From: Candidatus Nitrosocosmicus franklandus | Lineage (GTDB): Archaea > Thermoproteota > Nitrososphaeria > Nitrososphaerales > Nitrososphaeraceae | Reading direction: 5' to 3' | Length of the DNA stretch: 64,000 bases | Assembly: GCF_900696045.1 (NCBI RefSeq) | Contig: NZ_LR216287.1 | Location: 682,001-746,000, forward strand | Shown: piece by piece, positions 8,883-60,949 of the stretch | Numbering within the stretch: the stretch's first letter is position 1 | Layout of the letters: each line of letters begins with the position of its first letter | Program-made: the position numbers and the translations under genes | Notes under the pieces: generated by a model | What the model was told of the DNA's origin: nothing | The model's database searches: none | Seen by the model: only the letters and a program-made list of their open reading frames with translations

Positions 8883-10340
8883 CTATATCACATCCACATC
8901 GTGAGGATGGCTTTCTTTATACCCTGCGAGTGTAATCTTAATGAATTCAGCATTTTCTTGCATTTCGGGTATGGTGTTAGCACCACAGTAACTCAAACCA
9001 GATCTTACCCCTCCTACTAACTGCCTTATTATCTCAATCACGCTGCCTTTATATGGTACCATAGCCTCGACTCCCTCTGCAACATAATCATCTAAATCAT
9101 CATCGGCCGGACTAGATTCAGGGTTTTCGCGATATCTTCTTCCTAGTGCAGCATAGAAAGATGCCATTCCTCTATACATTTTGTACTTTTTACCGTTCTT
9201 CACAAGGGTCTTGCCAGGGCTTTCATCAGTGCCTCCAAAGAGACTACCTATCATAACTGTAGATGACCCAGCAGCTAAAGCTTTAGTTATATCGCCAGAC
9301 GTACGCGTTCCTCCATCAGAGATAACTGGGATATCATACTTTCTTGCTATCTTAACGCTATCTATTATCGCAGTAAGTTGAGGAACTCCAGAACCGGTAA
9401 CAACTCTTGTAATACATATCGAACCAGAACCTACACCCACTTTGACTGCATCTACTCCCGCTTTAATTAGATCTTCTGTTCCCTTACATGTAGCTACATT
9501 TCCAGCTATGAGTTCACATGTTGGAAATACCTTTTTTATCATCTTAACAGTGTTGATGGCATTGTCACTATGGCCATGTGCAATATCTACAACAATTACA
9601 TCTGCTCCATTATTTAGCAGAGCCTCAGTTCGTTCAAGATAATCTCCTTTTACTCCAACCGCTGCTCCTACAAGTAATCGACCCTTTTTATCCTTAGAAG
9701 CATTAGGAAATTCCTCCATTTTCAGGATATCCTTTCCTGTAATCAATCCATGGATTTCGCCTTTTTCATTTACAACAGGCAGTTTTTCGATCTTGTTTTT
9801 ATGAAGAATTTCTTTCGCCTGCTCTATTGTTGTACCTACTTTTGCAGAAATCACATCTCTAGTCATTAAATCTGAGACTAGAGTATCTAGATTGCGTTCA
9901 AAGACTGTATCTCGTCGTGTAAGGATACCACATAGCTTGTTTTCCTTATCTCTCACAAGGAGTCCTGAGATACCATTTTCCAACATTAAAGAATTGGCTT
10001 CGCGTATATTACTATCAGGACTTATAGTATGAGGTTGTTCAATAACTACAGACTCGCTTCTCTTAACTTTAAGGACTTGTTCCACTTGTTCGTTTATGGT
10101 CATAAACCTATGAATAATTCCTATCCCGCCTTCCCTCGCTAGTGCAATAGCCATTCGAGATTCGGTTACCGAATCCATATTCGCGCTTATAATAGGGATG
10201 TTCAAATTTACATTTGAAGATAATCGGGTTTTTAACTTAGTTTGAGCACGTGACACGATAGGGGATTTTTTAGGAACCAAGAGAACATCATCAAAGGTAA
10301 GGCCTTCTTTGAAGTACAATATTACCTTTATCCATAACAT
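8883..10340 (-). CDS. guaB: IMP dehydrogenase
   Basis: The enzyme oxidises IMP to XMP with NAD, the committed step to GMP. The 485-residue length is normal. A catalytic barrel ([20 protein letters not shown]) is interrupted by two CBS domains at about residues 99-210 ([36 protein letters not shown]). The active-site loop [15 protein letters not shown] carries the catalytic Cys at about 309, followed by [20 protein letters not shown]. The flap ([11 protein letters not shown]) and the C-terminal region [12 protein letters not shown] are intact. ATG 10340 adds about eight residues before KEGLTFDD; a slightly later start cannot be excluded. Confidence 0.95.
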
Positions 10341-10515
10341 GTTCTAGGATTATAAGCGTTTTCATTTGTGTATTTTACGACATCATCATCAAGTCATGAA
10401 ATCAAAAGAATATGGATTTCAATCCTGTGATTAGGCATCACAGAAAAAGTGTTTCTACACGACTTTCCTTTAATAAAAATAGGGATGAGAATGTTGTTCT
10501 TATCTATTGTGTTTG

Positions 10516-57309: not shown

Positions 57310-57993
57310 ATGAAAGGTTCCTCTAGGTTACTCCTTGTTTCTTTATTTGCAGTAATCCTTCTCGCAAGCCTATATTATACGAATACAATCTTTGCACGAG
57401 GTGACGATGACGATGATGACGATGATGACGATGATGACGATAAGAGTGATTTTTCTGATAAAGATGTGATACAGATTTGCTGTACTTGGGGATACGAACT
57501 GGCAGACGGGGTTCTTACTTATGCTATTGATATAGATGACGATGATGACGATGATCTTGTGGACCCAGTAAGAAGTGCTATAAAGACATGGAATAGAGAA
57601 TTAACGGGGATCAAATTTGTTGAAACAGATGATGACAACGAGGACATCAAAATATCATTTAAGAATGATGGAAAGAAAATAGCAGGAAAGACAGTAAACT
57701 ACTTTGATCGTTATGGATTTATCCGCCAGTCAGAAATCATAGTGTCCAAAGAATCATACAACAGAGACTTTAGCTCTGCTCATATCGAACAAATCACACT
57801 TCATGAGCTAGGTCATGTATTAGGTCTAGACCATGCCAATTTTAGAGGTAATCTCATGGCAGAGAGAGTAGATTTGGGAAGCACTTCAATATCTCCATGC
57901 GAAATTCAAGCAGTGAACATCGCGAATGCGTGGAAATTGAATGGGGGTAATACCATGTATTTACCTAAACAACAGTATATTGAGTGTCAATAA
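57310..57993 (+). CDS. Secreted matrixin-type zinc metalloprotease
   Basis: A 227-residue protein. A signal or anchor segment (LLLVSLFAVILLASLYYT) is followed by a run of about 14 Asp (residues 32-44), a CC pair (IQICCTWGYEL) and a second Asp run (76-82). The catalytic helix TLHELGHVLGLDHANF gives HExxHxxGxxH (His 165, Glu 166, His 169, His 175), with the Met-turn in NLMAERVD. DPVRSAIKTWNRELTGIKFVE is the usual matrixin start. It should cleave proteins outside the cell; the Asp runs probably bind calcium. Confidence 0.87.
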   Translation: MKGSSRLLLVSLFAVILLASLYYTNTIFARGDDDDDDDDDDDDDKSDFSDKDVIQICCTWGYELADGVLTYAIDIDDDDDDDLVDPVRSAIKTWNRELTGIKFVETDDDNEDIKISFKNDGKKIAGKTVNYFDRYGFIRQSEIIVSKESYNRDFSSAHIEQITLHELGHVLGLDHANFRGNLMAERVDLGSTSISPCEIQAVNIANAWKLNGGNTMYLPKQQYIECQ

Positions 57994-58210: not shown

Positions 58211-58420
58211 TTGCAATTAAAATTCAATGTGAGTATACTACAAAAGAAATTCAAGTGTGAAAAAGATGGAGAAAAATTTAGCTCTTACGACAAGTTCATT
58301 GAACACGGAAGAAAAGTTCATCGTTTTGTGGTTTTAAAATGCAATCGATGTGGAAAGCAATTTATTCATGAAAAAGATAGGTTACACCACGTTAGAGACC
58401 AACACAAGGATAATCGATAA
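58211..58420 (+). CDS. Small C2H2 zinc-finger protein
   Basis: A 69-residue protein from TTG 58211, or 63 from GTG 58229. The second half is a canonical C2H2 finger: LKCNRCGKQFIHEKDRLHHVRDQH. The first half, FKCEKDGEKFSSYDKFIEHGRKVH, has the same frame but Asp where the second Cys should be, so that finger is degenerate or uses Asp as ligand. Such small C2H2 proteins occur in archaea and may bind DNA, RNA or protein. The 217-base spacer upstream holds a run of ten C. Confidence 0.75.
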   Translation: MQLKFNVSILQKKFKCEKDGEKFSSYDKFIEHGRKVHRFVVLKCNRCGKQFIHEKDRLHHVRDQHKDNR

Positions 58421-58948: not shown

Positions 58949-60949
58949 TTATTCTCCTTCGTCGTCGTTGTCATCATCGTCGTTGTCATCATCGTCGTTG
59001 TCATCATCGTCGTTGTCATCATCGTCGTTGTCATCATCGTCGTTGTCATCATCGTCGTTGTCACCGCTTTCGCTGTTGTCACCGCTTTCGCTGTTGTCAC
59101 CGCTTTCGCTGTTGTCACCGCTTTCGCTGTTGTCACCGCTTTCGCTGTTGTCACCGCTTTCGCTGTTGTCACCGCTTTCGCTTGCACTTAGTGTTGTGAT
59201 TTCTTCTGCACCAGATTCATCGCCACTATTTCCGTTGCTTCCTTCGGTTCCTGCTGCTTGTGCTTCAGTTCCAGATTCTTGTGCTTGAGATATTCCTTGT
59301 CCAGCTGAATTGCCACCATTACTGCCTCCACTCTGTGCTGCTACATTGCTGCCCTCATTCTCCTGGTTTTGGATATTTATGTTATTACCAGATAAGAAGG
59401 AGCTTTCAGGTGTAACTACGCTGCTTCTTTGGTTAGAGGATTGTGATTGGCCGATGCCTTGAGCTGCGGAGTTGCCACCGCTACCTTTCTTTCCATAGTA
59501 ATAACCATCGTATGAAGATCCGCTTTCATCATCCAAACCAAACTGTGCCAAGACATTGCTTCCACTGTTGACTTGGTTTTGGAAGGATACATTGTTGCAA
59601 GAAACAATTGCATCTTCTCCAGAGACACATTGGCTTCTTTGGTTAGAGGATTGTGATTGGCCGATGCCTTGAGCTGCGGAGTTGCCACTACCCTTTCCAC
59701 TGCCATCAGATTGGAGAGCAACATTGCTGCCCTCATTCTCTTGGTTTTGGAAAGACAAATTGTTGCAAGAGGCCTCGATGCTACCACCTGCTACACATTG
59801 GCTGCTCTGACTGGAAGATTGTGATTGGCCGATGCCTTGAGCTGCGGAGTTGCCACTACCCTTTCCACTGCCACCATCCTGTGCTAATACGTTGCTTCCT
59901 TCATTAACCTGGTTTTGAATGCTTAAATTATTGCAAGAGTTGCTTACATCGCCACCTGAAACACATTGGCTTCTTTGGTTAGAGGATTGTGATTGGCCGA
60001 TGCCTTGAGCTGCGGAGTTGCCACTACCCTTTCCACTGCCACCATCCTGTGCTAATACGTTATTTCCATCGTTGAATTGGTTCTGAACGCTGATATTGTT
60101 ACACGATTGATCCACGTCGTTTGCTGCTACACATTGGCTGCTCTGACTGGAAGATTGTGATTGGCCGATGCCTTGAGCTGCGGAGTTGCCACTACCCTTT
60201 CCACTGCCACCAATTTGGCCTGCTGCATTATTTCCAAGATTTACTTGGTTTTGTATATTTAGATTATTGCATGACTCGTTCACATCGCCACCTGAAACAC
60301 ATCCACCGTATTGGTTAGAGGATTGTGATTGGCCGATGCCTTGAGCTGCGGAGTTGCCACTACCCTTTCCACTGCCACCATCCTGTGCTAATACGTTATT
60401 TCCATCGTTGAATTGGTTTTGTAGGTTTAGGTTATTTCCGGATAATATGGTATCATCACCAGAGACTACAAGTGCGCCCTGAGTTGAAGATTGTTCTTGG
60501 CCGATTGCTTGGAATGCGGTATTACCACTGTACTTTCCATAACCTCCTGATTGAGCTAATACATTATTGCCCAAGTTTACTTGGTTTTGGAGATTTAGGT
60601 TATTACAAGATAAGAAAGTCCCGTCTGCGCTAACACATACTGCAAGTTGTCTAGAATCCTGTTCTTGTCCGATTGCTTGTTCAGCAGAGTTGCCGCTGCC
60701 TTTGCCACTGCCACCGCTTTGTGCTGCAACATTATCACCAGAGTTAAATTGGTTTTGTAGGTTTAGGTTATTACAAGAGATAAATGTGCCAACTCCCGAC
60801 AAACAAATTCCGAGTTGAACAGCCCCTTGAATCTGGCCTATGGATTGAGATAATTCATTTTGTGCGTATACATTACTTGGCATGGCCATCATAGCCGGAG
60901 CCAAAGTTAACATAATGAATATGGGTAAAATAGCTAATAGGTATTTCAT
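58949..60949 (-). CDS. Secreted Cys-paired repeat protein with acidic tail, 666 aa
   Basis: A signal peptide (YLLAILPIFIMLTLAPAMM) is followed by about nine repeats of 50-60 residues. Each has CNNLNLQNQVNLGNNVLAQ, a Gly/Ser turn (SGGSGKGSGNSA), AQGIGQSQSSNQ and CVSGGDVSNSC. The spaced Asn/Gln pattern (QNQ, GNN, AQ, GNSA, GQ) resembles curlin and other amyloid-like beta-solenoids. Seven repeats carry a C-x9-C-type pair; repeats 3 and 9 lose both Cys together. The tail is (SESGDN)x7 then (DDDDN)x6. I infer a surface or matrix fibre with calcium-binding ends. A TATA-like element lies 29-37 bases upstream. Confidence 0.85.
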   Translation of the reverse strand: MKYLLAILPIFIMLTLAPAMMAMPSNVYAQNELSQSIGQIQGAVQLGICLSGVGTFISCNNLNLQNQFNSGDNVAAQSGGSGKGSGNSAEQAIGQEQDSRQLAVCVSADGTFLSCNNLNLQNQVNLGNNVLAQSGGYGKYSGNTAFQAIGQEQSSTQGALVVSGDDTILSGNNLNLQNQFNDGNNVLAQDGGSGKGSGNSAAQGIGQSQSSNQYGGCVSGGDVNESCNNLNIQNQVNLGNNAAGQIGGSGKGSGNSAAQGIGQSQSSSQSSQCVAANDVDQSCNNISVQNQFNDGNNVLAQDGGSGKGSGNSAAQGIGQSQSSNQRSQCVSGGDVSNSCNNLSIQNQVNEGSNVLAQDGGSGKGSGNSAAQGIGQSQSSSQSSQCVAGGSIEASCNNLSFQNQENEGSNVALQSDGSGKGSGNSAAQGIGQSQSSNQRSQCVSGEDAIVSCNNVSFQNQVNSGSNVLAQFGLDDESGSSYDGYYYGKKGSGGNSAAQGIGQSQSSNQRSSVVTPESSFLSGNNINIQNQENEGSNVAAQSGGSNGGNSAGQGISQAQESGTEAQAAGTEGSNGNSGDESGAEEITTLSASESGDNSESGDNSESGDNSESGDNSESGDNSESGDNSESGDNDDDDNDDDDNDDDDNDDDDNDDDDNDDDDNDDEGE
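58967..59056 (-). repeat. Six tandem 15-bp repeats (DDDDN)
   Basis: Six uninterrupted 15-base units encode DDDDN at the C-terminal end of the repeat protein. The unit is close to perfect, so length can change by slippage in whole pentapeptides without frame loss. Confidence 0.9.
59057..59182 (-). repeat. Seven tandem 18-bp repeats (SESGDN)
   Basis: Seven 18-base units encode SESGDN directly before the DDDDN array. Both arrays keep the reading frame. They are coding minisatellites, not CRISPR, since no spacers separate the units. Confidence 0.9.

Follow-up and report, generated by a model that had tools for sequence, protein, structure and literature searches.

A genus-confined family of exported repeat proteins with paired cysteines, a candidate component of the Candidatus Nitrosocosmicus coat

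What kind of structure is built by a long repeat protein in which the two cysteines of a repeat are present or absent together, and what such a protein does for an archaeon, are the questions raised by one gene in the window analysed here, a stretch of 64,000 nucleotides from the genome of Candidatus Nitrosocosmicus franklandus. The coat material of Nitrosocosmicus, and the aggregation and sticking of its cells, are treated as open questions in papers of 2024–2025 (PMC11559005, PMC12448741). The genus has been reported to have neither slp nor slaB and to be without an S-layer, and in N. oleophilus MY3 and N. franklandus a wall of about 18 nm has been described whose hair-like filaments are of unknown composition; for this layer the published authors favour a glycocalyx (PMC11559005). 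Biofilm formation in N. franklandianus begins with aggregation, and homologues of adhesins were not found (PMC12448741). By the terms searched, the main texts of these two papers do not mention the proteins described here, and in a search for literature on Nitrosocosmicus and amyloid the word was met in PMC12448741 in a reference only. The reading that we favour, with a probability of about 0.5, is that the gene belongs to a family whose members are secreted into the cell coat or biofilm matrix as beta-arch proteins, curli/FapC-like and stapled by disulfides.

The protein (Table 1) is the longest member of the family in its own genome, and orthologues with conserved gene neighbours are found in three other members of the genus. 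It opens with a hydrophobic leader ending in VYA before Q, judged by eye from the sequence, and similar leaders are seen by eye on other family members, which supports the description of a secreted archaeal repeat protein given by an initial sequence-only reading. Splitting at Q-x-I-x-Q divides the chain into seven units of 56 residues, one of 70 and one of 54, followed by the tail, so that the nine repeats of 50–60 residues first described are borne out with a period of 56 residues. All 14 cysteines fall in units 1, 2 and 4–8 as seven C-x9-C pairs, and unit 3 (VVSGDDTILSGNN) and unit 9 (VVTPESSFLSGNN) have V and G at the two cysteine positions; residue by residue, this agrees with the earlier statement that seven repeats hold two cysteines and that both are replaced in repeats 3 and 9. 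Rfam families and tRNAs were sought near the gene and none were found.

Table 1. Positions, within the window, of the repeat gene and of the parts of its product
Feature	Positions	Strand	Remarks
Exported repeat protein, 666 aa	58949..60949	minus	ATG start; ORF in window
Signal-peptide-like leader, residues 1-29	60863..60949	minus	...NVYA/Q, read from sequence
Unit 1	60680..60847	minus	Cys pair 49/59
Unit 2	60512..60679	minus	Cys pair 105/115
Unit 3	60344..60511	minus	Cys-less V/G type; Cys-less also in orthologues L009, L010, L011, L012
Unit 4	60176..60343	minus	Cys pair 217/227
Unit 5	60008..60175	minus	Cys pair 273/283
Unit 6	59840..60007	minus	Cys pair 329/339
Unit 7	59672..59839	minus	Cys pair 385/395
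Unit 8	59462..59671	minus	Cys pair 441/451; linker 14 residues longer (70 aa)
Unit 9	59300..59461	minus	Cys-less V/G type (54 aa)
Tail repeat (SESGDN)7	59057..59182	minus	
Tail repeat (DDDDN)6	58967..59056	minus	

The C terminus reads (SESGDN)7(DDDDN)6DDEGE, the two tail repeats being as first noted with DDEGE after them. Calcium binding by this tail, which had been proposed, is unsupported because the tail varies among orthologues (EGED, GDNGED or N/H/D-rich, with poor conservation) and is missing from most family members, and a calcium-binding tail was accordingly rejected as a feature of the family. A Pfam search with the whole protein, tail included, returned no family at E<=10 and no calcium-binding repeat of the RTX type.

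The sequence-only reading was right that a repeat protein is present and missed that it is one of many. The window protein matches 33 places in its own genome, a single contig of 2,836,447 bases, and a profile of 49 positions built from aligned family units finds 79 unit matches there in about 36 loci, a few of them apparently broken; in two further members of the genus with complete genomes the unit matches number 99 and 110. In a class sample of 400 genomes the family was found in all 15 belonging to the genus and in none of 384 others, with one genome (G036) set aside, and the positives in a phylum sample of 398 genomes are members of the genus only; the two named relatives with the family are both Candidatus Nitrosocosmicus. 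G036, from another genus, has its matches on contigs of about 5 kb (L203, L204, L205), and since a gene adjoining the match on one of these is closest to Nitrosocosmicus and absent from G024, a genome of the same genus as G036, contamination by Nitrosocosmicus-like contigs is likely and G036 was rejected as a true carrier. An origin in viruses or plasmids was likewise rejected, since the searches used, in which the query for viral contigs was one synthetic two-unit sequence, brought up no relatives among phages, plasmids or viral contigs. Searches with the window protein against Pfam, NCBIfam and the PDB gave no match, and the family appears to be previously undescribed and confined to the genus in the sampled genomes. 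That confinement and the leaders seen by eye can be read in the sequences, as can the alternation and the cysteine pairing described below, and we judge the family, its restriction to the genus as sampled, the strands and the paired cysteines, taken jointly, to be very highly probable.

The architecture of the unit can be read from an alignment of 455 distinct units taken from 173 distinct ORFs, each of which holds between 1 and 10 units. Q6 and G42 are invariant, and N2, I8, Q10, Q12, Q16, N32, N40 and Q48 are nearly so. Conservation alternates along two stretches: over positions 2–22 (strand 1) the mean entropy is 0.48 bits at even positions against 2.08 at odd ones (p 1.4e-4), and over positions 30–48 (strand 2) it is 0.54 against 1.86 bits (p 0.003). 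Couplings, computed as mutual information with average-product correction, follow the same rule: of the 25 strongest, 24 link even with even or odd with odd positions, and 13 of those are of the i/i+2 kind. Because conservation alternates in this way and couplings join equal-parity positions, the pattern is the mark of what would be a pair of extended beta-strands constrained on one face, a reading that is independent of structure predictors. Gln makes up 35% and Asn 23% of the residues at even positions, and both cysteines (positions 20 and 30) sit on this N/Q-lined face. Between units lie linkers of median 9 residues (range 5 to 32) that are 48% Gly, and 136 of the 173 ORFs have their end at most one residue from the last strand. 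A pairing of the two strands in the register i+j=50, which would face C20 with C30, V20 with G30 and I8 with G42 (the latter two setting a bulky residue opposite Gly), was attractive but was rejected, as no coupling apart from Cys20–Cys30 speaks for it.

On this basis we propose that each unit would form a strand–arc–strand beta-arch of about 47 residues, with two strands of about 19–21 residues each, in which every second strand residue, mostly Gln or Asn, would point inward and the variable polar residues outward. AlphaFold2 (AF2) gives a solenoid for residues 30–550 of the window protein (pLDDT 63.9, pTM 0.68, from three alignment rows) and a far less certain model for a less repetitive four-unit relative (pLDDT 42, pTM 0.29); both have two long strands per unit. 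AF2 is prone to unreal solenoids for repeat sequences (PMC11795689), and since it over-predicts them and the relative reached a pTM of just 0.29, the modelled solenoid is weak evidence, so that a beta-solenoid for the window protein is a suggestion only. Tertiary packing is confident in neither model, the four-unit relative showing low-confidence strand pairs only. A Foldseek search of the AF2 model against the PDB gave no significant match (best E 0.39); its weak matches are mostly beta-solenoids, and FapC (E 2.3) and CsgA (E 2.8) are among the non-significant ones. Of the beta-solenoid or amyloid-like fibre first suggested for this protein, the strand pattern and an inward N/Q face like that of curlin and FapC are supported, and there is no significant match of fold.

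Comparison with characterised functional amyloids shows a resemblance of design. The two short strands of a curlin repeat carry, as inward residues, N, a pair of small or hydrophobic residues and Q (PMC10192328), and CsgA, like the present family, is exported, consists of tandem strand–arc–strand repeats in variable number, and points every other residue inward, N and Q being conserved among these, and residues that are polar and variable outward. It differs in that its repeat is of about 23 residues, as against a unit of 56 here, and in that it has four inward residues per strand, as against about ten here which are mainly Q/N rather than hydrophobic. The cysteine pair across the arc and the Gly-rich linkers are features of the family described here, and export through an outer membrane of the CsgG type is not expected in an archaeon, which has no outer membrane. 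The curlin kernel N-$-Psi-$-Psi-$-Q with its repeat of 22–23 residues (PMC10192328) is not what is seen with a period of 56; N2-x-A4-x-Q6 and N44-x-A/L46-x-Q48 are look-alikes of a shortened kernel inside far longer strands. Membership of the curlin family was rejected, as the PF07012 (Curlin_rpt) profile gave no match over cut-off in the window gene and hhalign of the unit profile against E. coli CsgA/CsgB gave none either, the CsgA repeats reaching a probability of 11%. FapC, in which each cross-beta layer consists of one imperfect repeat, with linkers between repeats and a network of Asn and Gln (PDB 9u4u; PMC12392863), likewise resembles the family in its imperfect repeats, linkers and conserved Asn and Gln, the corresponding layering here being an AF2 suggestion. 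It is distinguished by a Greek key of five short strands, as opposed to two long strands here, and by the structure paper mentioning no Cys (PMC12392863), as opposed to the cysteine pair here. None of the PDB chains, those of FapC among them, was matched by the unit profile at E<=10. As these profile homology tests against curlin and FapC failed, the family is filed, from its sequences, as apparently curli/Fap-like in design and a member of neither.

How the units relate to one another in space bears most directly on the proposal. We think it somewhat probable that the units, joined by their linkers, would stack into a cross-beta rod like that of curli or FapC. The best-placed alternative, which we consider rather unlikely, is a hydrated and possibly glycosylated matrix with no cross-beta stacking, in which flexible Gly-rich linkers connect separate disulfide-closed beta-hairpins. 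The length range and Gly content of the linkers would suit it, as would the existence of single-repeat proteins and the failure of either AF2 model to pack its strands confidently. A conserved N/Q face backed by a variable polar one, however, leaves such a hairpin no usual hydrophobic core; near-invariant N/Q is typical of stacked solenoids and functional amyloids (PMC10192328, PMC12392863), and most chains end exactly at a strand edge. Against the stacked rod itself counts the lack of any sequence link, in the searches made, to a solved amyloid or solenoid.

The stapling of the proposed beta-arch depends on the two cysteines. Two are present in 282 of the 455 units, none in 173 and one in no unit at all, and since independence would predict about 57 single-cysteine units for the 127 clusters formed at 80% identity, where none is seen, the two-or-none pattern is not due to chance. 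The check in relatives that bears on the earlier argument for bonding therefore comes out in its favour, Cys20–Cys30 being also the strongest coupling in the unit (0.76, the next pair reaching 0.41). V/G stands at the cysteine positions in 169 of the 173 Cys-less units, and the sole unit out of register (L051:3566-3856) has its second cysteine one residue earlier. From the top coupling, the two-or-none pattern and the prevalence of V/G, the sequences argue that the pair is probably one structural element with two solutions, Cys/Cys or V/G. A unit tree made without the cysteine columns requires at least 15 switches of cysteine state, or 34 when columns 18–30 are left out; on its supported branches there are 5–6 independent switches, all of them joint (sign test p 0.06–0.03). 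The Cys-less V/G state thus seems to be largely an inherited unit type and not the product of 173 separate losses: the part of the first argument that held the pair to act as one stands, while what it took for losses is mostly inheritance. Joint gain and loss of the two residues, with no single-cysteine unit among 455 and every supported switch joint, is the behaviour looked for in an intra-repeat disulfide. Most single-repeat members have exactly two cysteines or none in their unit, and Cys-less units stand between Cys-bearing ones, for which reasons bonding within the unit is the simplest reading and, in our judgement, highly probable. The short arc would then be bridged by a Cys–Cys bond within the unit, or by Val/Gly packing in Cys-less units. 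The genome encodes two exported-looking DsbA-like thioredoxins (PF13462); VKOR was sought in it and not found, so that the disulfide pathway is incomplete.

A two-or-none pattern would also suit a site with two ligands, and the pair might in that case bind a metal, for which copper is the candidate in ammonia oxidisers, in place of forming a disulfide, the V/G units being a metal-free structural type. The fusion of one family unit with a NosD-like beta-helix would fit such a role. The unit profile, however, shows no His, Met or additional Cys conserved close to the pair, and oxidation of the pair is to be expected where an aerobe with DsbA-like thioredoxins exports the protein; we regard metal binding as improbable.

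Returning to the disulfide-stapled beta-arch, a family limited to a single genus and with dozens of exported, stackable members is an obvious candidate for the coat or matrix of that genus, and the rods would most likely be part of the Nitrosocosmicus filamentous coat or biofilm matrix, a role to which we give even odds. The bond, the stacking, the fibre and this role are the steps of the proposal that we infer. Members with one repeat, and fusion proteins, could dock on the same rods. In two fusions, both with a C-terminal domain, one unit is combined with a collagen-like G-x-y stretch (L058:950-1570 and L062:932-1534, near 2167 kb and near 45 kb of the genome), and a third (L213:1001-2023, near 456 kb) has the unit at its mature N terminus together with the NosD-like right-handed beta-helix; such fusions suggest a use of the unit as a module for assembly or docking. 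A wall anchor was not identified. An archaeal precedent is provided by MspA, which forms an amyloid-like cell covering in Methanospirillum and Methanosaeta (PMC6242892); compared by description, it shares imperfect repeats and several paralogues per genome, and differs in belonging to methanogens and in numbering from a handful to 15 paralogues per genome, as against about 36 loci here. The thaumarchaeal S-layer protein slp would hold the same place, that of an outer coat, whereas it is reported absent from Nitrosocosmicus (PMC11559005) and the family is, as sampled, confined to that genus. The bolder version, in which the S-layer has been replaced by a multi-gene functional-amyloid coat, seen as the hair-like layer and made of dozens of stapled N/Q beta-arch paralogues whose unit also serves as a docking tag for exported collagen-like and beta-helix domains, we find doubtful. 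Antifreeze solenoids have flat regular beta faces, and a protectant against desiccation, cold or ice surfaces, secreted and Q/N/G-rich, rather than a structural coat would accord with such faces and with an exported, very hydrophilic family amplified in a soil genus, but it is very improbable, no TxT-like ice-binding array being present in the unit profile.

Should the family prove amyloid-like, an archaeal type with a built-in disulfide staple would be added to curli, Fap and MspA, together with a natural non-disulfide alternative to that staple, which would be of interest for biomaterials too. As an exported, genus-only family whose tested members have no Pfam, NCBIfam or PDB match over the repeat, it supplies named genes for the question of the coat, and the genes for exported proteins at about 36 loci are a testable candidate for the hairy surface coat of Nitrosocosmicus.

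Several smaller observations concern the genes themselves. Three copies of one two-unit gene (L046, L047 and L048, at 1117 kb, 1097 kb and 2469 kb of the genome) are nearly identical, and two of them have at least 1.3 kb in common at 99.9% identity in opposite orientation, to judge from their sequences a recent segmental duplication. Two single-unit paralogues lie 9 kb apart (L055:998-1300 and 10081-10383) with identical leaders and upstream DNA and differing unit cores, as if the unit had undergone recombination or diversification. Upstream regions of family genes, inspected by eye, have blocks common to close paralogues only and no family-wide motif. Beside the window gene, a plus-strand ORF of 69 residues (58211-58420) with a C2H2-like zinc-finger pattern (KCEKDGEKF..., KCNRCGKQF...) is conserved alongside that gene in three further members of the genus. 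Also on the plus strand is an exported matrixin-type metallopeptidase with an Asp-rich stretch (57310-57993; PF00413, E 2.7e-13), and because DNA matching it adjoins the repeat gene in L064, L065 and L067 as well, this enzyme could process the secreted repeat protein.
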